64,000 nt of DNA from Methylobacter sp. (lineage in GTDB: Bacteria; Pseudomonadota; Gammaproteobacteria; Methylococcales; Methylomonadaceae), in assembly GCA_030653175.1 (NCBI GenBank), contig JAURZV010000052.1, positions 1 through 64,000 of the forward strand. Direction: 5' to 3'. The translations under genes were made by a program, and so were the position numbers. Under the pieces are notes generated by a model, which worked only from the letters and a program-made list of their open reading frames with translations, made no database searches and was not told the DNA's origin. Positions 3,955-37,454 of the stretch are shown in pieces (position 1 is the stretch's first letter; every line of letters begins with the position of its first letter).

Positions 3955-4347
3955 TTACCGCTCACAAGGAACAAGCTCATATTGTCGCCGGTCGCCAACA
4001 CGTTGATCAATAATGTCTTGGGGGGCATCGTGAGAAGCTTTTCTTGGATCGTTTTGTTCAGATCTGATGTGGTATTCTCTAACAGTTATACGTCTACCAT
4101 TTACAGCTTTTCTATCAAGCTGTTTAATGACCAGAGATGCAACGTCATCGGGCATTATTGTAACTACGCCATGAGCATTGAGCATGTTTTTTTCCTTGTC
4201 TAATAAATTGAGCAGCGTTATATCAACAATAGTTCCTGGAAGATGAAAAAATCGATAAAAAGGACTGCACTTAATAGCAGGTTTAATGACCTCAACCAAA
4301 TCTGATTTTTGGGTGGTCGGTGGAATATTTTTAAAAAAAACAAGCAT
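3955..4347 (-). CDS. RRM-like RNA-binding protein
   Basis: N-terminal LVFFKNIPPTTQKSDLVEVIKP resembles RNP2; HGVVTIMPDDVASLVIKQLDRKAVNGRRITVREYHIR resembles the end of an RRM fold. Confidence 0.5.
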   Translation of the reverse strand: MLVFFKNIPPTTQKSDLVEVIKPAIKCSPFYRFFHLPGTIVDITLLNLLDKEKNMLNAHGVVTIMPDDVASLVIKQLDRKAVNGRRITVREYHIRSEQNDPRKASHDAPQDIIDQRVGDRRQYELVPCER

Positions 4348-4546
4348 ATATAAAAGCCTTATAATATAAAGTGAACCATATGTTTAAAATAATGGTTCTT
4401 TACTTGCTTTCCTTTGGTAGAAAGAACATCAAGTTTTTGAAAGCCAACAACCTTTTTATTATTCATTTTTACTCCCTTTGTTTTTATTGTTTGCGTGGGA
4501 CAATATTCATATAATTTGAAATGCAAATATTTAAGAGGATAGGTGC

Positions 4547-4655
4547 TACTCCCATCTTACTTTGAAAACGTACAACTTTAAAAACAACGAAGCATCATGT
4601 GAATCAATGGATGCGACCTTTAAAAGGTATACGATTTTTCACTCAGACGGGAGTA
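4547..4655 (+). repeat. TIR element copy B (MITE-like, subfamily 2, 109 bp)
   Basis: TACTCCCATCTTACTTTGAAAACGTACAACTTT...TATACGATTTTTCACTCAGACGGGAGTA; interior differs from subfamily 1 but matches the 27763 copy (ATACGATTTTTCACTCAGA). Confidence 0.75.
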
Positions 4656-4686: not shown

Positions 4687-4702
4687 AGCATTATTTGAAC
4701 CA
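4687..4702 (-). promoter_or_regulatory. Candidate sigma-54 promoter
   Basis: Minus strand TGGTTCAAATAATGCT: GG-N10-GC spacing with partial match to TGGCACRNNNNTTGCW; exactly 75 bp from the 17-nt box at 4777. Confidence 0.4.
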
Positions 4703-4776
4703 AAAAATAATTTATATTAATTTACAAGGTATTGTGATGATATGGCATGTATTTGATCGCTAAAAGTATTTAATTG

Positions 4777-4793
4777 TGTAAAAAAAGCTGACA
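4777..4793 (+). promoter_or_regulatory. 17-nt box 1 (candidate PrsR-type enhancer site)
   Basis: TGTAAAAAAAGCTGACA; 16/17 identical to the box at 11706. Confidence 0.5.
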
Positions 4794-5108
4794 ATTTGTG
4801 CGAATGTAATGTTTTTTATTAGTGCCCTCATTACTGAGATTTTCTCCGCAGAGATTCAAGCGAATTAAAACGGGGCTTGGAAACAGGGTATTAATTACTG
4901 TTATTTTGGATATTTACGAGAACTAAATGAACAGTCTTATAGACTACTTTTCACCCCCTTTGAATATCTCTATGTTTGAACGTAAGAAATTACATAGTGT
5001 CTGAAAGGTAATCCATATTAATTTTTTCTCACAGATTATTTATCATGTTGAGCTATGCTATACCATTAAAACTGCTTCAATTTTCCAGTTGATGCTAACA
5101 ATTAAAGT

Positions 5109-6086
5109 TTGACTAACAGGTTTATCACAAGCAGGATTGTATTAATGTATTTTCGTAAGCTTAGCGCTCTTCAGTTAATTATTTTTCTTAGTCTAAATAT
5201 TGTTGTCGATTTGACAAGTTTTGCCTCGACAGAGCAAGTTACGGAGACGAAGCCGAATGGTTCAAAAATGCCCGGCGATCAGCTTATGGGTGTGGGCGCT
5301 CTAGGACGGATCGAGCCTCGTAGCCGGGTTATTCGCGTCTCTCATAATGCAGGTGCTGAAGGGGCTAATTTACAGAAACTTTTTTTTCAGGAAGGTGATC
5401 TGGTCAAAAATGAAGACGCGCTAGGTTTATTGGCCGATCATAATAAAAGGCAAGCGGATATTGAAGTCGCAAAAGCTAATGTGAAGGTGCTTGAGGCAAA
5501 ACTAGCCGTTGAAAAAATTACCCATGCCTATGACGAGAAAGAGCATGCCCGTTATCAATCGCTTATTAAAACAGCTACAGCCAGTGTTTCAATGGCCGAT
5601 CAAAAACGTCTGGCTTTCCAACGATCGCAAGCAATAATAATTCAATTGCAAGCGGAAATCGCAAGCGCTAAGGCCGACCAACAGGTAGCGGAAGAAAATC
5701 TAGCTAAAACCGTCATCAAAGCGCCTATTGCCGGCACTATTATCAAAATACAGGCCCGGCCGGGTGAAAGAATTACAGACAAGGGATTATTGGAAATGGC
5801 TGATTTGACTCAGCTTGATGTCGTGGCGGAAGTCTATGAAGTAGATTTGCCTAAAGTCCACGTCGGTCAAACAGCGGAAATTCAATTGGTGGGTTATCCA
5901 GTCCCTTATAAGGCTCAAGTGCGGGAACTTGGCTTTCAGGTCAGAAAAAATGACCTAAACGATACCGATCCGCTGGCTGACAAAGACAACAGGATTATCG
6001 AAGTACGACTGACCCTGGAAGATAAAGCAGTTACCGATTTACAACACCAGATTTACCGGCAGGTCCAGACACGGATACTGCCATGA
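5109..6086 (+). CDS. HlyD/DevB-like periplasmic adaptor of ABC exporter
   Basis: Biotinyl-lipoyl-like segment (VIKAPIAGTIIKIQARPGERIT) and coiled coil; followed by DevC-like and DevA-like genes. ATG at 5145 is an alternative to the TTG start. Confidence 0.8.
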   Translation: MTNRFITSRIVLMYFRKLSALQLIIFLSLNIVVDLTSFASTEQVTETKPNGSKMPGDQLMGVGALGRIEPRSRVIRVSHNAGAEGANLQKLFFQEGDLVKNEDALGLLADHNKRQADIEVAKANVKVLEAKLAVEKITHAYDEKEHARYQSLIKTATASVSMADQKRLAFQRSQAIIIQLQAEIASAKADQQVAEENLAKTVIKAPIAGTIIKIQARPGERITDKGLLEMADLTQLDVVAEVYEVDLPKVHVGQTAEIQLVGYPVPYKAQVRELGFQVRKNDLNDTDPLADKDNRIIEVRLTLEDKAVTDLQHQIYRQVQTRILP

Positions 6087-7252
6087 GTCTGATTACCGCG
6101 TTTTCGTTTCCTGCGCGTCTGGCTTGGCGACAGTTGCTTCATGATCGCACCAAACTCATTGCGGCGATATGCGGAGTATTGTTTGCTACAGTGTTAGTAT
6201 TCATGCAGCTGGGTTTTAAAGATGCACTTTATGCCGGTGCCTCTTACGCACCAATGAAACTGGACGGTGATTTATTCATTATGCACAAACAAACCGAAGC
6301 CATGTGGCGTTCGGTGCTATTTGACCGTAGCGAACTGATGCGTGCTCTCGGTCATCCTGAAGTAGTTTCCGCCTATCCTATGTATATAGGATTGACTCCA
6401 TTCAAGGTTACAGACACGCGAATTAAAAGAACCTTGATGGTCTACGGATATGATCCGGATGCTAATCTTATGGATATCAAGGAAATCCAGGCTAAGCACG
6501 AACTGCTTCGTCAACAAGACACGATAATGTTTGATGAGTCCTCCCGGCCTGAATTCGGTCCTATGCGACAATTAATGTCCGAGGGCAAAGACCTCAACGA
6601 AATTAATGATCATAAGGTTAAAACAGTAGGGCTTTTTCGCTTGGGCATATCTTTTTCGGCTGACGCTAATGTGGTCACCAGTGATTTGAATTTTTTACGG
6701 ATTTTCCGTGGCCGTAGTCCTGACCAAATCGACATGGGCATTATAAAGCTGTTACCGGGCGCCAATGCAGAGAAAGTCAAAGCAGAGCTTATTGCCAAGC
6801 TTAATGAAAATATCGTTTTGTTTACCGCTGACCAATTAATCGAATTTGAAAAAGTTTATTGGCAAATTAAAACGCCTATCGGCTTTGTCTTCGGTTTTGG
6901 GATGATTATGGGATTGATAGTGGGTATGGTCATCGTTTACCAGATTCTCTTTACCGACATCACCAATCATCTGAATGAGTTTGCCACTTTAAAAGCCATG
7001 GGTTACAAGAACAGCTATTTTGTCAAAGTCGTTTTTGCATCCGCATTTCTTTTGGCTATTTTAGGCTTTATACCGGGTTTTATCTTGTCATTGGGCCTTT
7101 ATCGTCTGGCTGAGGGACAAATTTTTATGCCGATGCCTATGACCTTAAATAAAATTATTACCATTTTTTTATTTATTTTAACCATGTGTGCAACAGCCGG
7201 ACTGCTTGCCATGCGTAAACTTAAAGCGGCCAATCCGGCAGATATGTTCTGA
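6083..7252 (+). CDS. DevC-like ABC transporter permease (FtsX-type)
   Basis: N-terminal TM followed by large periplasmic domain and C-terminal TMs (FGMIMGLIVGMVIVYQILFTDITNHLNEFATLKAMGY). Confidence 0.85.
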   Translation: MSLITAFSFPARLAWRQLLHDRTKLIAAICGVLFATVLVFMQLGFKDALYAGASYAPMKLDGDLFIMHKQTEAMWRSVLFDRSELMRALGHPEVVSAYPMYIGLTPFKVTDTRIKRTLMVYGYDPDANLMDIKEIQAKHELLRQQDTIMFDESSRPEFGPMRQLMSEGKDLNEINDHKVKTVGLFRLGISFSADANVVTSDLNFLRIFRGRSPDQIDMGIIKLLPGANAEKVKAELIAKLNENIVLFTADQLIEFEKVYWQIKTPIGFVFGFGMIMGLIVGMVIVYQILFTDITNHLNEFATLKAMGYKNSYFVKVVFASAFLLAILGFIPGFILSLGLYRLAEGQIFMPMPMTLNKIITIFLFILTMCATAGLLAMRKLKAANPADMF

Positions 7253-7926
7253 TGGCAGCTATGATTAATGTACAGAATCTGGATTTCAGTTACGGCAGCG
7301 GGGAGTTGAAAAATCAGGTATTAAAAAAGGTAAGCCTCACTATAGATGCAGGTGAGGTCGTTATTATGACCGGGCCTTCGGGTTCGGGGAAAACCACCTT
7401 GCTGACCATCATTGGCGGATTGCGCCAGGCTGAAGTAGGCAGTGTCTCAGTATTAGACAAGCAACTTGTCGACAGTATAGAGCGCATCAAAGTGCAGGTA
7501 CGCCAGCAAATAGGCTATATTTTCCAGCAACATAACCTGCTTAAATCCTTAACTGCGGTGCAAAATGTCAGCATGACGCTTGAAATGCATAACGGCCTAA
7601 ATGAACAAGAACGGCTTAAGCGTTCGGCCGAGATGCTTTCCGCTGTGGGCTTGGCAGACCGGCTGCATTATAAACCTGAGCAGCTTTCAGGCGGACAGCG
7701 CCAACGCGTATCGATTGCGCGCGCTTTGGTAGGTAACCCAAAAATCATACTTGCGGACGAACCTACCGCATCGCTGGATAAGCAAAGCGGCCATGATGCT
7801 GTGAGCATCCTAAAAAAGCTGGCCAGGGAATCAAGCACGACCATATTGCTGGTGACTCATGACTACCGAATTCTCGATGTCGCCGATCGCATAGTAGAGC
7901 TGGAAGATGGCATTATCAAAAACTGA
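7252..7926 (+). CDS. DevA-like ABC transporter ATP-binding protein
   Basis: Walker A GPSGSGKTT, signature LSGGQRQRVSIARAL, Walker B ILADEPTASLD. Confidence 0.93.
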   Translation: MAAMINVQNLDFSYGSGELKNQVLKKVSLTIDAGEVVIMTGPSGSGKTTLLTIIGGLRQAEVGSVSVLDKQLVDSIERIKVQVRQQIGYIFQQHNLLKSLTAVQNVSMTLEMHNGLNEQERLKRSAEMLSAVGLADRLHYKPEQLSGGQRQRVSIARALVGNPKIILADEPTASLDKQSGHDAVSILKKLARESSTTILLVTHDYRILDVADRIVELEDGIIKN

Positions 7927-8033
7927 AGATTTTAACAGCCTGATTGTGATGTTTAAGGTGATATCCATTAATAAATATTCCATCGGTAAAACTGATAACA
8001 CACAAGTCCTAATCTCATACACGAGTATGCTTT

Positions 8034-9323
8034 ATGTTAATGAATAGAAATCGCCTGATTACCGGCTTGATAAGCGTTTTAACGGTATTTACTGCTACGG
8101 AAGCTTTTGCAGAGACGCTGGAAGATGCCTGGAACAGCGCCATTAATAACAACCATCAGATCAAATCGGCGAAAGCCGATACCAGCGCCTCCGAACAGCA
8201 GTTGCATTCAGCGCAGGGGCAGCGGTTGCCCGATCTTAATGTAAGCAGCGGGTACACTCAGTTTAGTGAAACCCCGGCGGCAAAGACTCGGATAGAGGGC
8301 CAAACGGCTCAGTTTAACACCGCTCAGGCCGGAAGCGTGAAAGCCCAGGCGATAGCTTCGGTGCCGATTTTCACCAGCGGACGTATCAGTCATAACATTG
8401 ATGCCGCCGAAGCCACCTTGCAAGCTGTTCAATCCAATGAAATCACCTCGGTATTGAATATCAAAATGCAGGTGGCGGAAGCCTATATCGCGGTATTGCG
8501 CATGGATAGCGCCTTGCAGGTCGCGCAAAGCCATGTTGATGCTCTAGAGCTGCACATGAAGGATGTGAATAACCTGTTCGACCAAGGCATAGTCGCGCGC
8601 AATGACGTACTGGCGGCCAATGTGGAACTGGCCAATGCCCAGCAGCTGGTCGTACAGGCGAATAATCAACTGGACATTGCCCGGGCGCGCTATAACCAGT
8701 TACTGGATCGAAATCTTGCCGATGAGGTTAAACTGGCTCATCAGTTCCCTGAAGCCCCACAAGGAACATTAAACGATCTGAGCGGCAATGCGTTAAAACA
8801 ACGGCCCGAATTGGTCACACTGGCGCAGCAAATAGAGTCGCTAGGCCAACAGGCGCAGAGTGTAAAAGCCGGGCTGTTGCCGCAGGTCGCCGTCAATGGC
8901 GGCTATCAATATCAGGAAAACCGCTATCAGGCCTTTGAAGGCATGTGGATGGCCAATGTCGGCATGGATTGGAAAATATTTGACGGCAGTTCCGGTCATC
9001 GCAGCGATGCGCTTACCCGACAAGCTATTTCCTTAAAAGAGCAACGCGACAACTTATCCAGTGTGATCGGATTGCAGGTACGCCAAGCCTGGCTGGATAT
9101 TCAAGAAACGCAAAAACGCATCGCAATGACAAAGCAAGCCATCGCTCAAGCCGATGAAAACTTAAAAGTCACCACTGACCGCTACCGTCAGGGCTTATCC
9201 ATCAATACCGAGGTGCTTAAGGCAGAAGACTTGCGCACTGTTACTCTGGGCAATTTCAACAATGCCACGCTGGATGCCGCATTGGCTGTCCTTCATTTGC
9301 GCCGTGCAGTAGGTATTTTGTAA
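8034..9323 (+). CDS. TolC-family outer membrane efflux protein
   Basis: Signal peptide, TolC-like repeats (ALQVAQSHVDALELHMKDVNNLFDQGIVARNDVLAANVELANAQ). Confidence 0.9.
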   Translation: MLMNRNRLITGLISVLTVFTATEAFAETLEDAWNSAINNNHQIKSAKADTSASEQQLHSAQGQRLPDLNVSSGYTQFSETPAAKTRIEGQTAQFNTAQAGSVKAQAIASVPIFTSGRISHNIDAAEATLQAVQSNEITSVLNIKMQVAEAYIAVLRMDSALQVAQSHVDALELHMKDVNNLFDQGIVARNDVLAANVELANAQQLVVQANNQLDIARARYNQLLDRNLADEVKLAHQFPEAPQGTLNDLSGNALKQRPELVTLAQQIESLGQQAQSVKAGLLPQVAVNGGYQYQENRYQAFEGMWMANVGMDWKIFDGSSGHRSDALTRQAISLKEQRDNLSSVIGLQVRQAWLDIQETQKRIAMTKQAIAQADENLKVTTDRYRQGLSINTEVLKAEDLRTVTLGNFNNATLDAALAVLHLRRAVGIL

Positions 9324-9337
9324 AGACCGAGTGAAGT

Positions 9338-9360
9338 AAACGGATATAGTATATCGGTTT
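9338..9360. terminator. Candidate bidirectional terminator between convergent genes
   Basis: AAACGGATATA-G-TATATCGGTTT hairpin with one mismatch. Confidence 0.4.
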
Positions 9361-9364
9361 AGAC

Positions 9365-10498
9365 TTAACCTGCTCTGAGATCAGTTGTTTCCACGCCTCC
9401 AACAACTCGTGAACATAATTCACGGCAAATATTTACCAAAATCTTATTCGCAATCTCATTGTCAAACTTTAACAAGCGGGACATTGATGCTTCATCAAGA
9501 CTCAATAAACTGACATCATCAGATGCAGCAACAAGGGTAGCCGTACGAGGTACATGTAGAAAAAAAGCAATTTCCCCGATAATATCACCTGGAGAAATGA
9601 TTGCCTGCAATTGCCCGTCTCGTAGGACATGTACGAAGCCGGAAAGTAATATGAACATTGTTGTTGCGGCATTATCTTTCTCAATAATATGAGTGCCTTC
9701 CTTGCATACTATAATATGGCTCCTTTCTATCACCCGCTCAATCTCGTCCTTACTGAATGAATCAAATATTCTTGGGTTTTTATTTGGTAGTTTATTGAAA
9801 TCAATATGGATTTGCTTTAAAAAATCTGTTTTATCTGTTGTCGATTGACTTACAATGTTTAAATGGCAGCCAATTATATCTTGCAATTCATTAACATAGC
9901 GACAATGGCTGAGATCTTCTTCCCTGGTTAATACCGCAAATGGAGAGCCTGATCGTATTAAATGTTCATAATCACCCGTAATCAGAGCCATCGGGATCAC
10001 AAGCCCAATTCCAGGATAAGAGTAGGGATTGGTAAATGGACGAAAGCCGAGTTTCAAATAAGAATTCAGATGATGTGGTTCACAATCCAGCAACACGGCT
10101 TCTATTTTGTTATCCAGTACAAAATGCATAACTTCCTTATACATACGCAAGGTAACACTGGAGCCGCGATGTTGCTCATTGACCATTAACCGTTCGACGA
10201 TACAAATTTGTTGTTGTTCAAGTTTTTCCAGAAATGGTGACAGATGGTAGGCTTCGGTTAGGGTTTGAGTAAAAGGCTTATCTTCGCCCCAAAATAGCCT
10301 GAGGGTGCCGATAGTCTCGCCATTTTTAACGGCAATCACTGCCCTGGCATGGTCATCATATTCATCCCTTAGTTCTTTAAGCTCATGATTGCTCTGATCC
10401 TTTAGCCTGCCCATGCACTCGACATAAACCCTGTAACGCAGCTGATAGGACGCTTTTAATTCTTCTTCAGTTGTCGCAAACCTGACGCCGTCTTGCAT
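9365..10498 (-). CDS. GNAT/N-acyl-amino-acid-synthase-like acyltransferase fused to C-terminal cyclic nucleotide-binding domain
   Basis: N-terminal LRYRVYVECMGR...VERLMVNEQHRGSSVTLRMYKEVM resembles exosortase-associated acyltransferases; C-terminal IIEKDNAATTMFILLSGFVHVLRDGQLQAIISPGDIIGEIAFFLHVPRTATLVAASDDVSLLSLD is a cNMP-binding domain. Confidence 0.8.
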   Translation of the reverse strand: MQDGVRFATTEEELKASYQLRYRVYVECMGRLKDQSNHELKELRDEYDDHARAVIAVKNGETIGTLRLFWGEDKPFTQTLTEAYHLSPFLEKLEQQQICIVERLMVNEQHRGSSVTLRMYKEVMHFVLDNKIEAVLLDCEPHHLNSYLKLGFRPFTNPYSYPGIGLVIPMALITGDYEHLIRSGSPFAVLTREEDLSHCRYVNELQDIIGCHLNIVSQSTTDKTDFLKQIHIDFNKLPNKNPRIFDSFSKDEIERVIERSHIIVCKEGTHIIEKDNAATTMFILLSGFVHVLRDGQLQAIISPGDIIGEIAFFLHVPRTATLVAASDDVSLLSLDEASMSRLLKFDNEIANKILVNICRELCSRVVGGVETTDLRAG

Positions 10499-10661
10499 AT
10501 ATCACCCAGTCTAAATAAGGAGAGAAATCTCCGGTTTCGTTTTTACAACAAAGATCGAACATCTCAATAAAGGGTGAGTTTATCAAAAATGCAAGCTTCG
10601 CAGAAGCTAAATGCCCATGTTTAACCAAATTCACCAAGAAAAACGTGTGCATCCAAAACAA

Positions 10662-10695
10662 AAAAGCCCTGATGCCTATAGGCATCAGGGCTTTT
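10662..10695 (-). terminator. Rho-independent terminator-like perfect hairpin downstream of PEP-CTERM gene
   Basis: AAAAGCCCTGATGCC-TATA-GGCATCAGGGCTTTT. Confidence 0.85.
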
Positions 10696-10722
10696 ACTTA
10701 GCAAATAGATTATAGAGTCAAA

Positions 10723-11556
10723 TTAAGCTTGGTTACGACGACGGAATCCAAAGCCTATCAAACCCATACCCAAAAGTGCGATGGTTGTTGGTTCTGGCAC
10801 AGCAGTACCAAAGACAACGTCCATAGAGCCATTGATGTTTTGGGTGCCTGTAACCTGGAAGTTGTTGAACTGTCCGGATTCAAAAGCTAAATTATAAAAC
10901 GGAGTAGGGGATACAAAATAAGTTTTACCAAAGTCAGTAAGCGCAAAAGAAGTTGTTGAGCCAAAACTTCCGCAATTTATACCGCTACCACCGCCGGCAG
11001 AGCAAGTACTTAACCCCGGATTTAGCTGTCCTCCGCCCGCAACTGCCGCACCTGTTCCTATGAGGACGTCATCGTCAAACAACGATCTGCCCCAAGCAGA
11101 AGCTCCATTCGCAGCAGCAGTAAATTTGGTATTTGCCGAAGGATCAAGGAAGAGGTTTAAAGATCCTCCTGGAGTAAAAGTAAAGGTCGAAACCCCTGCT
11201 ACAGTAGTAAAAGTACCTGATGCTTGAAACAAAGCATACATGCCATAGCCGGCTGCGCCAAAACTGCCAAGTTGTGTTGTCAGTGGGTTAGCTCCGTCAT
11301 CGGCTACATACTGTCCTGCATTCCATTTTAGTGAAACGTCAAATGTGCCGGCCCCGAAGGTAACTATTTCATTATAGTTACCCGTAATTTTATCTGCAGT
11401 AAAAAGATTAGAAACAGTTCCTCCCGGCACTACGCCTTCCTGTACGTTAAAATCAGGAAAAATGTTTGCCGCCATTGCATTTGAGCTCGATATAACCAGC
11501 CCAGTTGTTAGTGCTGCGGCAAGTAGGGTTTTATTTAGAGTATTTAGCTTTTTCAT
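10723..11556 (-). CDS. PEP-CTERM sorting domain protein
   Basis: C-terminus VPEPTTIALLGMGLIGFGFRRRNQA; N-terminal signal peptide MKKLNTLNKTLLAAALTTGLVISSSNAMA. Start refined from 11589 to 11556. Confidence 0.93.
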   Translation of the reverse strand: MKKLNTLNKTLLAAALTTGLVISSSNAMAANIFPDFNVQEGVVPGGTVSNLFTADKITGNYNEIVTFGAGTFDVSLKWNAGQYVADDGANPLTTQLGSFGAAGYGMYALFQASGTFTTVAGVSTFTFTPGGSLNLFLDPSANTKFTAAANGASAWGRSLFDDDVLIGTGAAVAGGGQLNPGLSTCSAGGGSGINCGSFGSTTSFALTDFGKTYFVSPTPFYNLAFESGQFNNFQVTGTQNINGSMDVVFGTAVPEPTTIALLGMGLIGFGFRRRNQA

Positions 11557-11615
11557 TGTATGTCTCCAGTAAAAATTATGATCTAACAAGTAGACGCGTT
11601 GTCTGCAATAAGTAA

Positions 11616-11631
11616 TGCAGGTGTCGCGCCA
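11616..11631 (-). promoter_or_regulatory. Sigma-54-like promoter of PEP-CTERM gene
   Basis: Minus strand TGGCGCGACACCTGCA versus TGGCACRNNNNTTGCW: GG-N10-GC spacing with two mismatches; about 60 nt upstream of the gene start. Confidence 0.7.
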
Positions 11632-11705
11632 TCTATTAATTATTTATTATATATCAGTAACATATAAATAATTAACTCTCTAAAAAATCCAAGTAAATCA
11701 TAAAA

Positions 11706-11722
11706 TGTAAAAAAACCTGACA
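11706..11722 (+). promoter_or_regulatory. 17-nt box 2 (candidate PrsR-type enhancer site)
   Basis: TGTAAAAAAACCTGACA, 75 bp upstream of the sigma-54-like element. Confidence 0.6.
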
Positions 11723-15810: not shown

Positions 15811-17511
15811 ATGAAAAATAAAAAAACAATGACTGAAAATGGGCTTGCAGTTTTAGCTATAGGTCTTTTAACTTCCAGTTCTTTGGCAATGTCGGCAACC
15901 TATGACCCATTAAAACTCCAACAAAACAATTTTAATGCTATAGATCAAATTGCACCATCCAACAATGAATCTGGAAGTGCATCATCAATGCTGGATTCAT
16001 TGCAGCAAGCAGAAATAAATAATAAAAAATCGAATTATCTCGAAGCGCTGAGTCTTTTAAAACAAAATAAACTTAAAGAGGCCAGAGATAAAATTTCTGC
16101 ATTATTAAAGCAAGCTCCAGCAGAACCAGAGTTCTATAATTTACAAGCTTTATTGGAAACGCTGGAAAAAAATACCTTTGCTGCGGAACAAAGTTATCAA
16201 AAAGCGCTACAAATTAATCCAATAAATATTTTAGCGCATCTTGGTTTGGCAAAGCTGACTTTAGAAGCAGGAGAACTGGATAAAGCTAAGGATTACGCTA
16301 ATAAGGCATTATCTATTAATGAGAAAACTGTTAGTGCTTATTTTTTGTTAGCGGACATTGCGTATAAACAGAAAAATAACTCCGAAGTGGAAACTGTTTT
16401 ATTAAAAGCGCATGAAAAAGTAAAAGGTAATATCTCCGCAGAAATAGAAGTAATTAAAAATTTAGGGAAGTTTTATGCTCTACAAAATAAACCGGAAAAG
16501 ATACTCTTCTTAAGTGAAGATTTAGTTAAACGTTATCCTGATAATAGTCAAGCGCTGTCCGTTCTTGCCGGTGCTCAAATTGTCAATGATAAAAAAATAT
16601 TGGCAGAACAGACGTTGCGCCAGCTAATTAATCAAGAAAAACAAGATATTAATCATCGTTTGTTATTAGCTAAATTGCTGAGTGAACAGCCCGGTAAAGA
16701 AAAAGAAGCACTGAAATTAATGGATGAAGCGTCAGTAATTGAACCCAATAATCCACAAGCACTTGCCTTTAAGACGGCTTATTTAATTAAACTGCAACGT
16801 TATCCGGAAGCGTCAGAGCTCGCCAGTAAAATCGATAACCTGTTTCCAAAATTAGTATTAGGTAAGCTGTTAAAGGGTGATGTTTTTCTGGGAGAAAAAA
16901 AGTTGGACAAAGCTCTTGCTATCTATCAGCAAGCTTATAAATTGCAGCCCAATGATAAGGTATTATTTACTATTGTCGATTTAATGAGCGCACAGAAAAA
17001 GTTGCCAGAGGCCGTAAAATTTCTCGATCAGGCATTAGAAAAAAACCCAAAAAACAGCGCTATTCATTTCAAGCTAGCAACTGTTTACCAACAGCTGAAT
17101 AACAATTCACAAGCCGAAAATCATTACAAAGCAATATTGGCTGAACAACCCGAGAATGTTCTGGCGCTGAATAATTTAGCATGGCTTTATTCGCAACAAA
17201 ACAATCCGCAAGCTATAGAATTAGCAAAAAAAGCTTACACTAATTCGCCTGAGTCGGGCGCAATTGCAGATACTTATGGCTATATCCTAGTTAAACAGGG
17301 CCAGCCGGCAGAAGGTTTAACTGTGCTTGAAAAGGCTGTCAGCTTGGCGCCCGCCGCAAATGATATTCAGTTTCATCTGGCGGAGGCTTATGCTGCTAAT
17401 AATAACAGGAATAAAGCCCTTGAAATACTCGAAACTCTTGCTAAAGCTGGACAAGACTTTTCGGAAAAAAAGGCCGCCCTTAGTTTATTAGACAAATTAA
17501 AGGCTAATTAA
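15811..17511 (+). CDS. TPR-repeat exported protein
   Basis: Signal peptide and many TPR units (AEQSYQKALQINPINILAHLGLAKLTLEAGELDKAKDYANKALSIN). Confidence 0.85.
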   Translation: MKNKKTMTENGLAVLAIGLLTSSSLAMSATYDPLKLQQNNFNAIDQIAPSNNESGSASSMLDSLQQAEINNKKSNYLEALSLLKQNKLKEARDKISALLKQAPAEPEFYNLQALLETLEKNTFAAEQSYQKALQINPINILAHLGLAKLTLEAGELDKAKDYANKALSINEKTVSAYFLLADIAYKQKNNSEVETVLLKAHEKVKGNISAEIEVIKNLGKFYALQNKPEKILFLSEDLVKRYPDNSQALSVLAGAQIVNDKKILAEQTLRQLINQEKQDINHRLLLAKLLSEQPGKEKEALKLMDEASVIEPNNPQALAFKTAYLIKLQRYPEASELASKIDNLFPKLVLGKLLKGDVFLGEKKLDKALAIYQQAYKLQPNDKVLFTIVDLMSAQKKLPEAVKFLDQALEKNPKNSAIHFKLATVYQQLNNNSQAENHYKAILAEQPENVLALNNLAWLYSQQNNPQAIELAKKAYTNSPESGAIADTYGYILVKQGQPAEGLTVLEKAVSLAPAANDIQFHLAEAYAANNNRNKALEILETLAKAGQDFSEKKAALSLLDKLKAN

Positions 17512-17598: not shown

Positions 17599-18957
17599 AT
17601 GAATGATAAAAAAGTATTGCTCGTTGTCGAAGATGATATAGGCTTACAAAAACAATTAAAATGGAGTTTTGATGCGTATCAAACGGTTATTGCCGGCAAT
17701 AGAAATGACGCAGTTGCCGCTTTAAAGCGATATATGCCAAGCGTGGTAACGCTTGATTTGGGCTTGCCGCCGGATGCCGCAAATGCCAGCGAAGGACTAT
17801 CGACACTCAAGGAAATTCTGGAGCTGGCTCCTGCTACAAAAGTCATCGTGGTTACAGGCAATGATGATCGAGAAAACGCCATCAAAGCAGTGGCAATGGG
17901 AGCTTACGATTTCTATCAAAAACCAGTCGATATTGATATTCTCAATATGATTATTAAACGGGCCTTTCAACTGGATGAACTGGAAAAAGAATATTCAACG
18001 CTACGACAAAAGACGCCGGAACCCTTGGCGGGTATTATCGCCTCTTGTAAAAAAATGCATGAACTTTCGCGCATGGTTGAAAAAGTCGCCCCTACTAATG
18101 TCACTACTTTATTATTAGGTGAAAGCGGTACCGGTAAAGAGGTGTTGGCTAAAGCAATTCATAGCCTAAGTGATCGATCTAATAAACCTTTCGTTGCGGT
18201 GAACTGTGCTGCTATTCCGGAAAATTTACTGGAAAGCGAATTATTTGGTTATGAAAAAGGGGCCTTTACCGGAGCCGCACAACAAACCAAAGGTAAAATT
18301 GAATATGCTCATAATGGTACTTTCTTTTTGGATGAAATAGGCGATCTTCCGTTTGCATTACAAGCTAAGTTATTACGTTTTATGCAGGAAAGAACCATAG
18401 AACGGATTGGAGGAAGACAAGAAATTCCGGTTGATGTGCGCATTATTTGCGCAACCCATCAGAATCTGCAAGCATTAATTGATAATGGTCAATTTAGAAG
18501 TGATTTGTATTATCGAATTAATGAAGTGACTATAAATATTCCACCTTTAAGAGAAAGAGAGGGGGATGCAATTGTAATTGCCACTACACTACTAAGACGC
18601 TTCTGTGAAATAAATAATAAGAAAATTAAAGGCTTCAGTAAAGAGGCGACAACAGCTATTGAAACTTATCCATGGCCTGGAAATATTCGAGAACTTGAAA
18701 ATAGGATCAAGAGAGCGGTCATTATGACTGACGAAGTTAATATCACTATTGATGATTTGGAGCTAGCACAAAGTACGGATACTTCAGTACCATTTAATTT
18801 GAAGGAGATTAGAGATGTTGCTGAAACAATTGCCATAAAAAGAGCGCTAATATATTCTGATAATAATATATCAAATGCAGCAAAGCTTTTAGGCGTGACG
18901 CGTCCAACGCTTTATACGCTGCTTGATAAATATGGAATTCAAACTGCTCCCCTCTGA
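17599..18957 (+). CDS. prsR: PrsR-like sigma-54-dependent response regulator of PEP-CTERM systems
   Basis: Receiver domain (VVEDDIGLQKQLKW, VTLDLGLPP), AAA+ with GESGTGKE and ELFGYEKGAFTGA, Fis-type C-terminus (NISNAAKLLGVTRPTLYTLLDKYGI). Confidence 0.9.
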   Translation: MNDKKVLLVVEDDIGLQKQLKWSFDAYQTVIAGNRNDAVAALKRYMPSVVTLDLGLPPDAANASEGLSTLKEILELAPATKVIVVTGNDDRENAIKAVAMGAYDFYQKPVDIDILNMIIKRAFQLDELEKEYSTLRQKTPEPLAGIIASCKKMHELSRMVEKVAPTNVTTLLLGESGTGKEVLAKAIHSLSDRSNKPFVAVNCAAIPENLLESELFGYEKGAFTGAAQQTKGKIEYAHNGTFFLDEIGDLPFALQAKLLRFMQERTIERIGGRQEIPVDVRIICATHQNLQALIDNGQFRSDLYYRINEVTINIPPLREREGDAIVIATTLLRRFCEINNKKIKGFSKEATTAIETYPWPGNIRELENRIKRAVIMTDEVNITIDDLELAQSTDTSVPFNLKEIRDVAETIAIKRALIYSDNNISNAAKLLGVTRPTLYTLLDKYGIQTAPL

Positions 18958-19988: not shown

Positions 19989-22064
19989 ATGGAAAGCTAT
20001 AGTTTCTACGGTTATTTAACAGCTAGCATTGCTTATTTTCTTTTGTTGCCGCTGTCTTTTGTAGGTATAAAAAAAAATCCGCTAGCAATTCAATTTATTA
20101 TAGCAATTGGTTTTTCATTGCTTTGGGCCGGTTTTGCTGCTTACACACTACAAAGCACCGATTTATTCATTTCAGAAATCCTGCCCCTTGAAACATTACG
20201 TAATGCGGCTTGGTTTTTTTTATTGGGCACATTGCTGTCCCGTCAACAGTTTAATTGTAACTATACTTTAGTGCTTAAGTCCAGAGTGGCTTATGTGGTA
20301 ATTTTGTTAACGGTATTTGTTTTGGTGCTGGAAGTTTTCGCAGACTTTCGATATTTCATTCAGCAATTCATTGGACAAGATCCGCGTCTTGTTGCGCATG
20401 CTATTTTTTCGATTATAGGCTTAATTTTAGTCGAGCAAGCATACCGTAATGCCGGTGTTGAGCAGCGCTGGGTAATTAAATTTTCATGTTTGAGTTTGGG
20501 CGCATTATTTATTACTGATTTTATTGTTTACAGTAAGTCGTTATTGTTTGTAAAGCTTGACGATACGCTTTGGAATTCGCGAGGATTTATTAATGTTCTT
20601 ATAATACCCTTATTAGCTGTTTCAATCCGTCGATTCCAGACCGATGCCGCTAGAATAAATTTTTCAAGGAAGTTGGTGTTTCATACAGCGGTACTGTTTA
20701 GTATTGGGTTGTATTTAATTTTGATGTCGTTCACTGGCTTTTATATCAGGAATTATGGTGGCAGTTGGGGAAAGCTCGCACAATTGATCTTTATTTTTCT
20801 AGCAATCCTGTTGCTTTCAATCGCTTTTATTTCGGGAAAGGTCAAGGCGCTAGCTAAAGTTTATTTCAGTAAACATTTTTTTCACCTCCGTTATGACTAT
20901 CGTGATGAGTGGATTAAGCTCTGCAAATCGCTAGCCATGTTAGACTCTCTCAGCGAATTATCTGGATTTATTATTAAAACTATGGCTGAGCTGGTCGATA
21001 GTTCAGGGGGAGGCTTATGGTTAAAAAATGAGCAGGGTGATTTTTATCTGACTGAAGAAAATAATCTTGGTTTCCAGTCTTTGCAATTGATTAACGCTAA
21101 CCAGTCTTTGGTGCAATTTCTTATTGCCAAACGTTGGGTTATTGACTTTATTGAGCTTATAAATGACCCTGAAGTTTACGATGAAGTGGATTTATCACAA
21201 TGGTGTTCAAAAGAGAAAAATGTCTGGTTAATTATTCCATTGTTTCGGCAAAATGAGATGGAAGCTTTTGTAGTATTGACTCAGGCTAGAGCTATAAGAA
21301 GACTTAATTGGGAAGATCATGACTTATTAAAAACAGCTGGTATGCAATTAGCCAATGCATTGGCACTCAGTCGAGCTAGTGAAGCATTGGCTAAATCGCG
21401 TCAGTTTGAGGCTTATAATCGGTTTTCTGCTTATCTTGTACATGACTTGAAAAATCTAGTAGCACAAATCTCCCTTATTGTAAGAAATGCGGAAGGGCAT
21501 AAACATAATCCAGAATTTATTGATGATTCTATAGCGACTCTTGAAAATGTAGTTAATAAAATTGATCATCTTCTTGGCCAACTAAAAAAAGGTGTTAAAA
21601 ATAATGGGGATAGGGTAATAATCAATCTAGCGGATATCGTATCTGATGTTGCTATTCTACAAGCTGGAAACAGACCGGTTCTGCAACTAGCTGTAAGCCA
21701 AGATAATATTTGTATTTTAGGCGAAAAAGAAAAAATAACTGCTATTTTGGGCCACCTGGTGCAAAATGCACAGGACGCAACTGATGATAAAGGCTTGGTT
21801 AGATTGGAGTTAAGTAGAGATGAGCAGCAGGCAATCATTAAAATCATTGATAATGGCTCTGGTATGGATAACAAGTTTATTGCAGAGCGTCTATTCAAGC
21901 CATTTGACACAACTAAAGGTAATGCAGGAATGGGAATTGGTGTTTATGAAGCTCGTGATTATATATTAAAACATTCTGGTCAGATTACTGTTGATAGTAC
22001 GCCGGACGAAGGAAGTATATTTACTATTAAACTGCCTCTAGTTAATGGTTTATTGGACGCATAA
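19989..22064 (+). CDS. prsK: PrsK-like sensor histidine kinase
   Basis: Multi-TM N-terminus, GAF-like middle, H-box FSAYLVHDLKNLVAQISLIVRNAE, ATPase DNGSGMDNKFIAERLFKPFDTTKGNAGMGIGVYEARDYILKHSG. Confidence 0.9.
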   Translation: MESYSFYGYLTASIAYFLLLPLSFVGIKKNPLAIQFIIAIGFSLLWAGFAAYTLQSTDLFISEILPLETLRNAAWFFLLGTLLSRQQFNCNYTLVLKSRVAYVVILLTVFVLVLEVFADFRYFIQQFIGQDPRLVAHAIFSIIGLILVEQAYRNAGVEQRWVIKFSCLSLGALFITDFIVYSKSLLFVKLDDTLWNSRGFINVLIIPLLAVSIRRFQTDAARINFSRKLVFHTAVLFSIGLYLILMSFTGFYIRNYGGSWGKLAQLIFIFLAILLLSIAFISGKVKALAKVYFSKHFFHLRYDYRDEWIKLCKSLAMLDSLSELSGFIIKTMAELVDSSGGGLWLKNEQGDFYLTEENNLGFQSLQLINANQSLVQFLIAKRWVIDFIELINDPEVYDEVDLSQWCSKEKNVWLIIPLFRQNEMEAFVVLTQARAIRRLNWEDHDLLKTAGMQLANALALSRASEALAKSRQFEAYNRFSAYLVHDLKNLVAQISLIVRNAEGHKHNPEFIDDSIATLENVVNKIDHLLGQLKKGVKNNGDRVIINLADIVSDVAILQAGNRPVLQLAVSQDNICILGEKEKITAILGHLVQNAQDATDDKGLVRLELSRDEQQAIIKIIDNGSGMDNKFIAERLFKPFDTTKGNAGMGIGVYEARDYILKHSGQITVDSTPDEGSIFTIKLPLVNGLLDA

Positions 22065-27939: not shown

Positions 27940-29514
27940 ATGCAAGATCAGTTAGCACAACTTTTTTATTATGCAAAGGGCGCATTAAGATACAAATGGT
28001 TAGCCTTGATTGTTGCTTGGCTAGTTTGTTTAGGCGGCTGGTTATTTGTATTTGCTATGCCTAATAAATATGCTTCTGAAGCCAAGGTTCATGTTGAAAC
28101 AAAAACCATGTTACAGCCCTTGCTGCGTGGAATGACTATTCAATCTGATACTGCTGGATTGCTGCGTATTATGCAGGTATTGATGTTTACACGGAACAAT
28201 ATTGAACAAATTATTAAGATGTCGGATTTAAATAAACAATCCGATACGATCGATCAATCAGCCCTTATTGAAAAGTTGAAAAAGGACATTAAAATTGAAG
28301 GAGGGCGAGATGATATATTTACTATAAAATATGAAGCAACATCCGCCACTTTGGCCAAAAATGTTGTTCAAGCGGTATTAACTGTTTTTTCGGAACAAAC
28401 GCATCAATCTACCCTGGCCGGTACAGATGTTGCCAAAAAATTTATAGACGATCAAATTCAAGAATATGAAACTCGATTAAGAAATGCAGAACAAGCCAAA
28501 GAAAATTTTAAGCGCGCTAATTTAGGATTATTGCCTGGAGAAGGAGGGGGGCATGTTACTCAAGCTCAAAGCGCAGCAAGTCTTCTTGACGATGCTAAAT
28601 TGCAGCTAAGCGAGGCGCTGTCTCGACAAAAAGCACTCACAGAGCAATTAAATGGTATAAAGGATTCTGATGAAGACTGGGCTGTTGCGGATTTTGGTGG
28701 TGATTTAACAGAAGAAGATAGCAGAATAGAAGCGCTTAATTTAAGGAAAAAGGAGCTTTTAGTTAGATTTACTGAAAATCATCCTGAGATTGTATCGATT
28801 AATAATACAATTAAAGGGTTGGAAGAGGTCAAACAAAAAACGGAAAAGAAGGGTGCGATTGATGACATGTTTGTTAAACCTAATGTAATGGCCAATCCCT
28901 ATGTTCAAACAGTGAAAGTTGCTCTAAATGAGGCGGATGCAGCCGTGGCATCTGCTAAGGCGCGTGTTGATGAATTAAAGATATGCGTTGAAAAAATTGG
29001 AGAAGAGATGCAATCCAGGTTGGCTGTTGAAACAGGGTTGCAAAACCTAAATAGAGATTATGATTCTATAAAAAAGAATTATGAGCAGTTACTTGAAAGC
29101 AGGGAACAAGCGAGCATGTCTGAGAAAGTTGATGATCAGGCTGAGGCGCTAAAATTTAAAATTGCAGATGCTCCAAATGTTCCGTTAAAGCCCTCATCTC
29201 CTAAGCGGATGTATTTTTATTCCGGATTGCTTGTAGTCGGCTTTATTTTTGGGTTTAGTCTATCATTATTATTATATATGACCAAACCAACTATTATGTC
29301 AGCCTCGCAACTCGGACAGATAACTGGACTTCCAGTTCTAGGTGGGGTTTCTATAAAAAATAACTCTATCGAATTATCGAAAAATAAAAATGAAATTGTT
29401 CGATATTATTGTGCAGTGCTGGGGCTTGTGTTGATTTATCTTGGATTTATGACTGTTGAGGCTTTGGAGATAAATTTTACTAGTATTGCTGGCTTATTGC
29501 ATCGGATTACTTAA
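27940..29514 (+). CDS. XrtA-associated polysaccharide chain-length determinant (Wzz-like)
   Basis: N-terminal TM WLALIVAWLVCLGGWLFVFAMPNKYASEAKVHVET, coiled coils, PxxP near C-terminal TM (PNVPLKPSSPKRMYFYSGLL). Confidence 0.88.
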   Translation: MQDQLAQLFYYAKGALRYKWLALIVAWLVCLGGWLFVFAMPNKYASEAKVHVETKTMLQPLLRGMTIQSDTAGLLRIMQVLMFTRNNIEQIIKMSDLNKQSDTIDQSALIEKLKKDIKIEGGRDDIFTIKYEATSATLAKNVVQAVLTVFSEQTHQSTLAGTDVAKKFIDDQIQEYETRLRNAEQAKENFKRANLGLLPGEGGGHVTQAQSAASLLDDAKLQLSEALSRQKALTEQLNGIKDSDEDWAVADFGGDLTEEDSRIEALNLRKKELLVRFTENHPEIVSINNTIKGLEEVKQKTEKKGAIDDMFVKPNVMANPYVQTVKVALNEADAAVASAKARVDELKICVEKIGEEMQSRLAVETGLQNLNRDYDSIKKNYEQLLESREQASMSEKVDDQAEALKFKIADAPNVPLKPSSPKRMYFYSGLLVVGFIFGFSLSLLLYMTKPTIMSASQLGQITGLPVLGGVSIKNNSIELSKNKNEIVRYYCAVLGLVLIYLGFMTVEALEINFTSIAGLLHRIT

Positions 29515-29536
29515 AAAGTATCATATAGAGGAATAG

Positions 29537-30454
29537 ATGAGCATCATTGAAAGAGCTTTAAATAAAGCCAAAGATGAAAGGCAAAAATCAGGTAATTCGA
29601 CTGATTCTCCCAATGAAATTGAAAATAATTTAAGCAATCAGGATAGTTGTTCGTTAAGTACCTCGGCGTCTACGACTGAATTAATGGGTGCTTCCGGAAA
29701 AGAAGAGCGGTCGAATGGCGCGAAAGAAATTGAATATATTGATTGGGAAGCATTGGCTGAACTAGGATTTGTAACGCCTGCCAGTAATACAAATACGCAA
29801 GCAGTAGAGGAATACAGAAATATCAAAAGACCATTGATTAATAATGCCTTCGGGATTGGGAGTGTTGGCATTAATCGATCTAATCTTATTTTGATAACTA
29901 GCAGTATTCCTGGAGAAGGGAAAACATTTACTGCCATTAATCTTGCTTTAAGTATTGCAAATGAGCGAGATAAAAAAGTTTTATTGATTGATGCCGATGT
30001 CGCGCGCCCATCTGTTTCAAAGACGTTGGGAATTAAGTCATCGCCCGGATTGATAGAGTATCTGGAAGGCCAGAATGTTGAGTTTTCAGATATAGTGTTA
30101 AAGACAAATATGCCAGGGCTTAGTGTAATTCCTGCAGGTAAGCAACACAAACATTCTACTGAGCTATTAACTAGCAATAGAATGATTCTATTGGCACAAG
30201 AGTTAAGCAATAGATACCCTGATAGAATGGTTATATTTGATTCTCCTCCATTGCTAGCGGCCACTCAAGGTGAGGTTCTGGCGGGTTTGGTTGGACAGGT
30301 AATATTGGTTGTAGAGGCTGAAAAAACACCACAAAGTATGATAATGGCCTCAGTTAATAAATTGGTGTTTTGCGATGTCGTTTTAGTATTGCTTAATAAA
30401 ACGCAAAAGAATGTAGACGCAAACCATTATGGATATGGATTGTATGGGTATTGA
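29537..30454 (+). CDS. XrtA-associated tyrosine autokinase (BY-kinase-like)
   Basis: LILITSSIPGEGKTFTAINLALSIANERDKKVLLIDADVARPSVSKTLG; C-terminal Tyr cluster HYGYGLYGY. Confidence 0.88.
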   Translation: MSIIERALNKAKDERQKSGNSTDSPNEIENNLSNQDSCSLSTSASTTELMGASGKEERSNGAKEIEYIDWEALAELGFVTPASNTNTQAVEEYRNIKRPLINNAFGIGSVGINRSNLILITSSIPGEGKTFTAINLALSIANERDKKVLLIDADVARPSVSKTLGIKSSPGLIEYLEGQNVEFSDIVLKTNMPGLSVIPAGKQHKHSTELLTSNRMILLAQELSNRYPDRMVIFDSPPLLAATQGEVLAGLVGQVILVVEAEKTPQSMIMASVNKLVFCDVVLVLLNKTQKNVDANHYGYGLYGY

Positions 30455-32060
30455 TGTTGTTTTTGTAAAAAGGCGAGTATTTAATGCATTCTCCTTGTCT
30501 ATCAGGTATATAGGTATTGTTTATCTGCTTAGTTATCACGAACAGGTATATGCATTTAATGTAACAATGAGACCCTCTGTTTCTACGCAAGAAATTTATT
30601 CTGATAATATTAATCTGTTGCAGTCAGGAAATGAAAAGAGTGCGTTTGTTACTGAAGTGAGTCCTGGCATTTCAATCATAGGTCGATCTGCACGATCGAC
30701 TCTGAATCTAAATTACAGAATGCAGAATTTATATAATGCTGGTGGAAATAATGGTATCAAGATAGCGAATCAATTGCAGTATAATTCTCATAATACCTTT
30801 ATTCCAAATAGATTATTTTTAGATTCACATAGCTCGATTAGCCAGCAAAATATCAATAGTAGCCAAGTCGCTAATGACAATATCTCAGGGTCTGGTAATA
30901 GCACTAATGTGTCTACTTTTGGCGTGTCACCGTATTGGACTCCTCGTTTCGGCAATTATGCTAATGGCAGCCTTAGGCTTAATTTCGATACAGTAACAAC
31001 TGATTCATCTTCAAACAATAATTCTAATTCATCATTGAATGCAATTTCAGACACCGTAAATCTTGCGGAAATAATTCAACTAAACAGTGGCTCTGAATTT
31101 CAGCGTATTAAATGGAATCTATCTCACAATAATACTGAAAATTACAGACTGGGGAGCGATGATGTCAAATTTCAAAATACAGATGCGATAGTGAGAACTT
31201 ATTTAAATCAATATTTCAATGTCTTTGCACGGGGAGGCTATAGTAAAAACAGTTTCCAGTCTACGACCACTACTAACAAAAATGGCTTGTTTTATACTTT
31301 TGGCGGGCAATGGAAACCCAGTCAATATTATAGTATTGAGGCAGGAGCCGGTAACAATAGCTATGTAACTGTCGCTATTTCACCTATGCAGCGGCTAAAC
31401 TGGATTACAACTTTTAGAAACAATTCTATCGGTTTAAATTCAGGAAAAACGTGGCAAACAGCATTAAAATACCGAACAAGACAATCAACTTGGGCATTGA
31501 CCCATGATAATGACACTATCACAGTACAGGAAATTTTATTGCAACAACAGGTTTTTACCGTTCAGGATTCGTTCGGTAATGACATAATAGACCCAGTTAC
31601 GAATCAATCTGTGCAAAGAGCAATAAATCTTCCAACATTAACCAATGAAGTGATCGTTAGAAAAAAATGGGATTTTTCGGTTTCGTTTAATACAGGCAAA
31701 AGTATTATAGGTGCGAATGCTTATAATGAAGATAGGGTGTTTCAGACCAGCGGAAATAACCAGATAGTCAGAGGAGTAAGTGCGACATGGAATTGGCAGT
31801 TTGCAAGCAAAACGAGTGCTTATATACGCCCTTTGTGGCAGCAAACCGATAGAGGTATGGATATAAAAGATGATAGGTATGACATCTTAATCGGGGTAAA
31901 TAGATCAATCACCAGTCACATTAATGGCAAACTGGAATTTCGTCATGTGAATCAATCATCAGACAACAATGCAAATATAAATGCCTTTCAACCGTTAAAT
32001 TTAAATGCAAATAACTATCAAGAAAACCGAGCAACAGCCAGTTTATTTATGAGATATTAA
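30429..32060 (+). CDS. PEP-CTERM-system-associated outer membrane beta-barrel protein
   Basis: VTMRPSVSTQEIYSDNINL and repeated beta-strand composition; position between autokinase and ATPase. Confidence 0.75.
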   Translation: MDMDCMGIDVVFVKRRVFNAFSLSIRYIGIVYLLSYHEQVYAFNVTMRPSVSTQEIYSDNINLLQSGNEKSAFVTEVSPGISIIGRSARSTLNLNYRMQNLYNAGGNNGIKIANQLQYNSHNTFIPNRLFLDSHSSISQQNINSSQVANDNISGSGNSTNVSTFGVSPYWTPRFGNYANGSLRLNFDTVTTDSSSNNNSNSSLNAISDTVNLAEIIQLNSGSEFQRIKWNLSHNNTENYRLGSDDVKFQNTDAIVRTYLNQYFNVFARGGYSKNSFQSTTTTNKNGLFYTFGGQWKPSQYYSIEAGAGNNSYVTVAISPMQRLNWITTFRNNSIGLNSGKTWQTALKYRTRQSTWALTHDNDTITVQEILLQQQVFTVQDSFGNDIIDPVTNQSVQRAINLPTLTNEVIVRKKWDFSVSFNTGKSIIGANAYNEDRVFQTSGNNQIVRGVSATWNWQFASKTSAYIRPLWQQTDRGMDIKDDRYDILIGVNRSITSHINGKLEFRHVNQSSDNNANINAFQPLNLNANNYQENRATASLFMRY

Positions 32061-32062
32061 CT

Positions 32063-33088: not shown

Positions 33089-33098
33089 GGAAAATACC

Positions 33099-34217: not shown

Positions 34218-34234
34218 TTCAGGTTATATAACTT

Positions 34235-35089: not shown

Positions 35090-35161
35090 AATGCAAGCTA
35101 CGCAGCTAAACGTGCTTTGGTAATGGAAGCAAAAAACAAAACAAATAGGTAATTAAGAAGC

Positions 35162-37444: not shown

Positions 37445-37454
37445 GAGTGGCGGA

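Follow-up and report, generated by a model that had tools for sequence, protein, structure and literature searches.

Two 17-nt boxes in a 64,000-nt stretch of DNA from the methanotroph Methylobacter sp. (the window) are members of the published PEP-CTERM box, and both very likely serve the response regulator PrsR as upstream activating sites, from which sigma-54 RNA polymerase would be contacted across a loop very probably folded by an IHF bend. In Haft et al. (2006; PMC1569441), a 17-nt 'motif 1' that ends in TTTACA precedes a sigma-54 'motif 2' at proteobacterial PEP-CTERM genes, with a 32–92-nt spacer reported only as this range and a mean and SD of 62.8 ± 10.6; the authors proposed PrsR as the motif 1 binder and noted a few non-PEP targets. 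The first-pass annotation had cautioned that the motif might not be wholly new, and it was indeed published there with the same PrsR hypothesis. To this description we add phased spacing, a site matching the IHF consensus, a likely RRM-type target gene, occurrence at 4/4 of the PEP-CTERM genes found in this genome, and near confinement to PrsR-encoding genomes.

Two boxes with sigma-54 elements at equal spacing

The box before pepA (site 2, a putative PrsR site; 11706..11722, minus strand), TGTCAGGTTTTTTTACA, is an imperfect TGTCA-N7-TTACA dyad, and its sigma-54 -24/-12 element, TGGCGCGACACCTGCA (11616..11631, minus strand), scores 19.9 of 20.9. The box assigned to an RRM gene (site 1, also a putative PrsR site; 4777..4793, minus strand), TGTCAGCTTTTTTTACA, is paired with a sigma-54-like element, TGGTTCAAATAATGCT (4687..4702, minus strand; score 14.2), which is weaker, lacking the C of TGGC. 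Both elements have the GG-N10-GC core, with the TGGCAC/TTGC context strong at site 2 and weaker at site 1. The first-pass annotation had placed both boxes and both minus-strand elements (4702-4687 and 11631-11616) correctly. Its 75-bp distance from the T position to the box edge holds at both sites (4777-4702 = 11706-11631), with 74 nt between. The 17-mer TGTCAGSTTTTTTTACA has exactly two exact matches in the 4.0-Mb genome, each with TGG-N10-GC 74 nt downstream; statements about this genome rest on pattern searches plus individually retrieved stretches.

Site 2 lies just upstream of a PEP-CTERM gene, as had been claimed: pepA (10723..11556, minus strand), for a flocculation-associated PEP-CTERM protein, matches NF033554 (E=2e-54) and TIGR02595, begins with an ATG at 11556 preceded by GGAG, and encodes the tail VPEPTTIALLGMGLIGFGFRRRNQA. 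Throughout the genome, box and sigma-54 elements were found at 4/4 PEP-CTERM genes identified. Two tandem PEP-CTERM genes on contig C9 have the box TGTCGAAATTTTTTACA and a sigma-54 element at a gap of 97, and a VPEP-tailed gene on contig C6 has both parts at a gap of 84. We also sought a box upstream of window gene 208-915, because relatives elsewhere (L148, L207) have one, and found none. Like the Haft box, the window sites combine a 17-nt motif ending in TTTACA, a spacer (74 nt) within 32–92 nt, a sigma-54 -24/-12 element, PrsK/PrsR/PrsT in the genome and, at site 2, a downstream PEP-CTERM gene (pepA); site 1 differs in having an RRM gene in that place.

At up to three mismatches, the box has five matches in the window versus 0.92 expected, a count reached in 0/100 shuffles, and 62 in the whole genome versus 37 for the reversed control. 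By themselves, sigma-54-like elements show no enrichment in the window (41 versus 37 expected), and only the combination of box and sigma-54 element is informative. Across 61 genomes (this one plus 60 relatives), the composite TGTCAN6TTTACA-N52-82-GG-N10-GC gave 73 matches versus 4 for the reversed control; since the pattern fixes the TGTCA and TTTACA edges, box composition is uninformative for those columns. Runs of T occur in any A/T-rich genome and GG-N10-GC is common, so a chance origin of the box pair and its equal spacing could be imagined, but composites far exceed the control, site 1 is conserved in both its parts and the motif is present in the literature, and we regard chance as extremely improbable. 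Near-matches at C5:6024, C6:35751, C58:5876, C62:10093 and window position 14438 lack a suitably spaced sigma-54 element and were set aside as chance. C48:4266, which lacks a full box and is directly followed by a long non-PEP-CTERM ORF, was likewise rejected. The enrichment before PEP-CTERM genes that the first-pass annotation had proposed to check is borne out by held-out composites, 51/77 of which are followed by an ORF carrying a PEP-CTERM-like tail.

Box–promoter spacing is helically phased

Spacings fall into classes of about 63–65 and 73–76 nt, one helical turn apart; gaps measured to GG have their maxima at 64–65 and 74–75, with almost none at 67–71. For A/T-core boxes in the 52–82 range, the gap to GG is phased at 10.5 bp (Rayleigh R=0.63, n=120, p about 2e-21), and the signal persists once similar spacers are removed; 80 other matches gave p=0.24, and phasing in the 83–113 range was not significant. 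The gap of 97, shared by the C9 pair and the pepA-like gene of genome G006, misses the phased series by about 2 nt. We therefore rejected 75 bp as a universal constant: the distance stands for the window sites, which represent one of several phased classes about one helical turn apart. As box and promoter are only about 6–7.5 helical turns apart, rotational register would be required.

An IHF-like site is locked to the promoter

The IHF consensus is YAANNNNTTGATW. Each window spacer contains a two-mismatch match to it on the minus strand, TATGTTACTGATA at the pepA promoter (11652..11664), 33 nt upstream of TGG, and CAATACCTTGTAA at site 1 (4722..4734), 32 nt upstream of TGG. The consensus was a prior one, not fitted to these spacers, and matched 26/58 of them versus 6.7±2.4 in dinucleotide shuffles. 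In held-out spacers, matches with at most one mismatch at positions 31–34 numbered 27/77 versus 0.5±0.7 expected, so that the consensus lies between enhancer and promoter across the family; about 40% of held-out spacers have no match within two mismatches at the expected position. Strings with the internal gap altered by one (AANNNNNTTGA, AANNNTTGA) or reversed showed no enrichment.

The match falls 32–33 nt upstream of TGG in both spacing classes and is thus fixed to the promoter, not to the box. This position, together with the many spacers that have only two-mismatch versions, would also suit an extension of the sigma-54 promoter, an A/T tract or binding by a nucleoid protein other than IHF. 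Such an origin is possible, but we think it the less likely one, given that an unfitted IHF consensus is enriched where gap-shifted and reversed strings are not, and that the held-out set confirmed the same position. We favor IHF binding at this element.

Co-occurrence points to PrsR

The window's PrsK/PrsR pair with a sigma-54 activator, noted in the first-pass annotation, scores over both family cut-offs. PrsR (17599..18957, plus strand), the PEP-CTERM-box response regulator, reaches 705.9 bits with TIGR02915 (cut-off 502.6) and has GAFTGA, the loop for sigma-54 activation, at residue 221 as well as a Fis-like C-terminus; the histidine kinase PrsK (19989..22064, plus strand) reaches 679.6 bits with TIGR02916 (cut-off 300). 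The genome's two PrsT-like proteins, at 288.5 and 297.8 bits, fall just below the TIGR02917 cut-off of 312.2; the former is the TPR protein at 15811..17511 (plus strand; E=9e-86). PrsR, PrsK and PrsT are thus represented in the genome, the last just under its threshold. An XrtA/PEP-CTERM-linked exopolysaccharide locus follows (27940..40512, plus strand), with a chain-length determinant, an outer membrane protein and an XrtA-system amidotransferase (TIGR03007, TIGR03016, TIGR03108).

Few strict composites fall outside PrsR genomes: 53/58 are in 18 PrsR-encoding genomes. The remaining 5/58 are spread over G006, G015, G018 and G050; among these bins, G006 alone is near-complete. Genome G004, 99% complete with 13 PEP-CTERM-type matches and no PrsKR, has no strict composite. 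In G006, boxes lie upstream of a pepA-like gene, an RRM gene and a third gene, and we found no PrsK or PrsR in the bin. Contig C75 of this bin begins immediately upstream of its pepA-like gene, at about the place that prsT/prsR/prsK occupy in the window; part of the bin is therefore likely to be missing, though this is unproven.

Another NtrC-family enhancer-binding protein could instead read the box, with PrsR co-occurring indirectly. The Methylobacter genome has at least ten others, and in G006 the conserved boxes persist with no detectable PrsR beside 13 further members of the family at E <= 1e-60. Against this stand the 53/58 distribution, the incompleteness of the other exceptional bins, the joint absence of PrsKR and strict composites in G004, and the same phylogenetic match in Haft et al. 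(PMC1569441), and we consider it quite improbable. Genomic co-occurrence supports the putative assignment of the box to PrsR.

Site 1 precedes an RNA-binding protein gene

Site 1 probably acts on a gene for an RRM-type RNA-binding protein (3955..4347, minus strand), recognized by family alignment and profile: the family profile matches poly(A)-binding-protein RRMs in PDB (best E=2.3e-11), and a single-sequence Pfam search of the product gave no match. The site 1 box is conserved in L099, L100 and L101, where the sigma-54-like element is identical to TGGTTCAAATAATGCT (L099) or reads TGGTTCAAATCATGCT (L100) and TGGCTTAAATTGTGCT (L101). The three closest orthologous RRM loci keep the whole composite, with gaps of 74, 64 and 73. 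Distant RRM homologues (32–42% identity) have no full box upstream, which confines the box–RRM link to a clade of 72–89% identity.

The RRM gene starts 355 nt downstream, past an inverted-repeat (MITE-like) insertion of about 110 bp (4547..4655) that is absent from Methylobacter FW305, and past a 35-codon ORF (4359..4466, minus strand) with its own GGGAG-like ribosome site, only the first codons of which are conserved in FW305. Such a long leader might suggest that transcription from site 1 yields a non-coding RNA or a leader and not the RRM message. In the three closest orthologues, however, which lack the insertion, the box starts about 215–340 nt before the RRM start, and box and gene are conserved together; we therefore judge a leader-only role improbable and infer an effect on the RRM gene itself.

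Discussion

From these sequence patterns we infer the following mechanism. PrsR, encoded 6–13 kb from the boxes, would be phosphorylated by PrsK, and its oligomers would occupy the TGTCA-N7-TTACA dyad. Its GAFTGA loops would then touch sigma-54 RNA polymerase poised at the -24/-12 element and open the promoter, the loop very probably being folded by a sharp bend at the IHF site 32–33 nt upstream of TGG. Site 2 would thereby switch on pepA, for a PEP-CTERM surface/EPS-matrix protein, and site 1 the RRM-type RNA-binding protein, which would give the PrsKR regulon a post-transcriptional branch.

Known systems share parts of this layout. NtrC/NifA-type enhancers working with IHF and sigma-54 likewise have a dyad for a Fis-type domain about 100 bp upstream and DNA looping, as we propose here, and face-of-helix dependence is described for NtrC at nifLA, as cited in PMC7408454; the PEP-CTERM box differs in its TGTCA-N7-TTACA dyad, usually single, its short spacing and its discrete helical classes. 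In Aquincola tertiaricarbonis RN12, a PepA-family gene adjoining prsT also has a predicted enhancer upstream and is RpoN1-dependent with a mapped -24/-12 start, and the authors call for further experiments (PMC9850573); that is another proteobacterium, and the accessible text of the study contains no analysis of enhancer position or an IHF site. The text of Haft et al. is without helical phasing, an IHF-like site or an RNA-binding-protein target (PMC1569441); the first two are seen here and the third is likely.

We lean toward regarding this as an unreported promoter plan for the PEP-CTERM box, joining a phased PrsR dyad, a locked IHF site and a promoter, with a clade regulon that includes the RRM protein. 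The dyad would always face the same side of the helix, its distance changing by whole turns, and the IHF site would sit 32–33 nt before the sigma-54 element. In a Methylobacter-related clade, the RRM protein may link EPS/PEP-CTERM expression with control at the post-transcriptional level.

With phasing and the IHF-like site, what had been a loose 'motif 1 somewhere upstream' becomes a precisely defined architecture open to simple point tests, and helix-phased distances with a likely DNA-bending-protein site between them make the switching mechanism easily testable. The composite is also a far more specific search for the PrsKR regulon, and the conserved RRM-gene target suggests that this regulon extends beyond sorted surface proteins.

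Two box and promoter composites in the window

The first-pass annotation had placed two 17-nt boxes (4777-4793, site 1; 11706-11722, site 2), each with a minus-strand GG-N10-GC element (4702-4687 and 11631-11616), and we confirmed all four positions in the window sequence; on the gene strand, each site reads TGTCAGSTTTTTTTACA, 74 nt, then TGG-N10-GC. Across the 4.0-Mb genome, these two sites are the sole exact copies of the 17-mer, and the window contains five box matches with ≤3 mismatches versus 0.92 expected. Sigma-54-like elements taken alone are at chance level in the window, so the evidence resides in the combination of box and element. A large gap with no obvious gene (13941-15810) contains a 2-mismatch box (14438-14454), near which we found no sigma-54 element.

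The suspicion that the box motif was already known proved correct. Motif 1 (17 nt, 3' end TTTACA), a spacer (62.8 ± 10.6 nt, range 32-92) and motif 2 (17 nt with a sigma-54 pattern) precede 99 of 167 proteobacterial PEP-CTERM genes, and PrsR was proposed as the activator from matching phylogenetic profiles (Haft et al. 2006, PMC1569441); both window sites fall in this class. Site 2 precedes pepA (10723-11556, minus strand; NF033554, E=2e-54), whose Aquincola counterpart depends on RpoN1 and has both a mapped -24/-12 start and a predicted enhancer (PMC9850573). The annotated PrsK/PrsR pair was recovered in the window (PrsR 705.9 bits, PrsK 679.6 bits) and is followed by an XrtA-type exopolysaccharide locus; the closest named relatives of the window are Methylobacter and Methylovulum bins.

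Genes downstream of the composites

Across 61 genomes (our own and 60 relatives), TGTCAN6TTTACA-N52-82-GG-N10-GC gave 73 matches versus 4 for a reversed control. All three TIGR02595 PEP-CTERM genes of our genome carry box and sigma-54 element: pepA in the window (gap 74) and a tandem pair of genes on contig C9 (172-2476, locus L036; box TGTCGAAATTTTTTACA, gap 97), whose nearly identical upstream regions suggest recent duplication of the promoter region. A fourth gene, with a VPEP tail, lies on contig C6 (gap 84). The predicted enrichment of PEP-CTERM genes downstream of the box was borne out in 77 non-redundant composites from genomes outside the discovery set, 51 of which lead to an ORF with a PEP-CTERM-like tail as called by an automatic test.

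Besides PEP-CTERM genes, composites repeatedly precede genes for lytic-transglycosylase-like proteins, DUF3135 proteins and uncharacterised proteins whose amino terminus reads SRRR...APVVLTL, among others. The SLT lytic transglycosylase-like proteins recur in several families of the order (L162, with Sel1 repeats and an SLT domain confirmed by Pfam; L209, L234 and L291, assigned by similar sequence). At another locus, L180 (G055:C1:1871524-1871667), three tandem PrsR boxes in 25-bp steps lie upstream of one sigma-54 element. The window protein encoded at 208-915 (minus strand; N-terminus SRRSFAKAGIVAPVIMTLTSK) is related to those of loci L148 and L207 in other genomes (blastp E ~1e-13), whose genes have a PrsR box upstream; neither a PrsR box upstream of the window gene nor a Pfam family for its protein was found.

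Site 1 precedes a gene (3955-4347, minus strand) for a 130-aa product, whose family alignment matches RRM domains of solved structures (best, poly(A)-binding protein, E=2.3e-11). The three closest orthologues (72-89% identity) all keep the site 1 composite, and more distant homologues lack it. Judged from sequence, the RRM gene is likely a direct PrsR target, not a sorted protein. An inverted-repeat insertion of ~110 bp (4547-4655), absent from the orthologue in Methylobacter FW305, separates promoter and gene; it is one of four window copies of a MITE-like element (~110-125 bp, ends TACTCCCRTCTKAST; also 1077-1196, ~15344-15466 and ~18946-19064). Upstream of the RRM gene, a short minus-strand ORF with a good ribosome site (MNNKKVVGFQKLDVLS..., 4359-4466), conserved in FW305 in its first part alone, may be a leader peptide or what remains of a gene.

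Spacing is helically phased

The annotated "fixed 75 bp" spacing holds for the two window sites, which are alike (74 nt between) and belong to the 74/75 class, but other gaps to GG also peak at 64-65, with a small group at 53-54 and almost none at 67-71. For A/T-core boxes in the range 52-82, gaps are phased at 10.5 bp (R=0.63, n=120, p ~2e-21, relatedness ignored); we found no phasing among the 80 matches without A/T core in that range (p=0.24, relatedness again ignored) or for gaps of 21-51 and 83-113, ranges dominated by background. The pattern was kept after removal of similar spacers (57/60 retained), and at the corresponding site of the RRM orthologue L100 the gap is 64, one turn shorter, in alignable surroundings.

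An IHF-like site in the spacer

In promoter-aligned spacers, positions -31 to -23 relative to TGG form a conserved patch. The textbook IHF consensus on the gene strand is YAANNNNTTGATW, and matches with ≤1 mismatch occur in 26 of 58 spacers versus 6.7 ± 2.4 in shuffles; in this set, no clear enrichment was seen for the consensus with altered internal spacing, as a reversed string or in opposite orientation. The matches lie 32-33 nt upstream of TGG in both spacing classes, indicating that the PrsR box shifts by a turn while IHF-like site and promoter stay together. In held-out spacers, positions 31-34 matched in 27/77 (≤1 mismatch; versus 0.5 ± 0.7) and 46/77 (≤2 mismatches; versus 5.1 ± 2.0); the opposite orientation was somewhat raised at any position (21/77) and not raised at positions 31-34 (2/77). 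The window sites carry CAATACCTTGTAA (site 1, 4734-4722) and TATGTTACTGATA (site 2, 11664-11652), both on the minus strand with 2 mismatches. Full-text searches found no literature uniting PEP-CTERM regulation with IHF; the three papers in which both terms occur deal, by title and abstract, with transcriptomes of Geobacter biofilms and with gut symbionts of fruit flies, and the text of Haft et al. 2006 does not mention IHF (PMC1569441).

Co-occurrence with PrsR and a proposed mechanism

Strict composites (A/T core, phased spacing, sigma-54 score ≥13; n=58) fall in PrsR-encoding genomes in 53 cases, spread over 18 of 23 such genomes, counting G049, whose gene is partial at a contig edge. The remaining five come from genomes in which PrsR was not detected: G015, G018 and G050, which are 70-85% complete, and the near-complete G006, where boxes precede a pepA-like gene, an RRM gene and a third gene and neither PrsK nor PrsR was found. 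For G006 we prefer an assembly or binning gap, because its contig C75 starts 840 nt upstream of the pepA-like gene's box, about where the window carries prsT, prsR and prsK.

The sequences, their conservation, the phasing, the enrichment of the IHF consensus and the co-occurrence with PrsR are observed here; binding by PrsR and IHF, DNA bending and regulation are what we infer. If it acts like known enhancer-binding proteins, PrsR-P would form oligomers on the box dyad, engage sigma-54 through GAFTGA (residue 221) and, by ATP hydrolysis, remodel the closed complex. A DNA loop of <100 bp is stiff, which would explain why box and promoter keep rotational register and why a bend is needed. Together, both sites are real, functional-looking and part of a known class, and, to judge from the searched literature, the details of the three-part architecture and the RRM target had not been described before.
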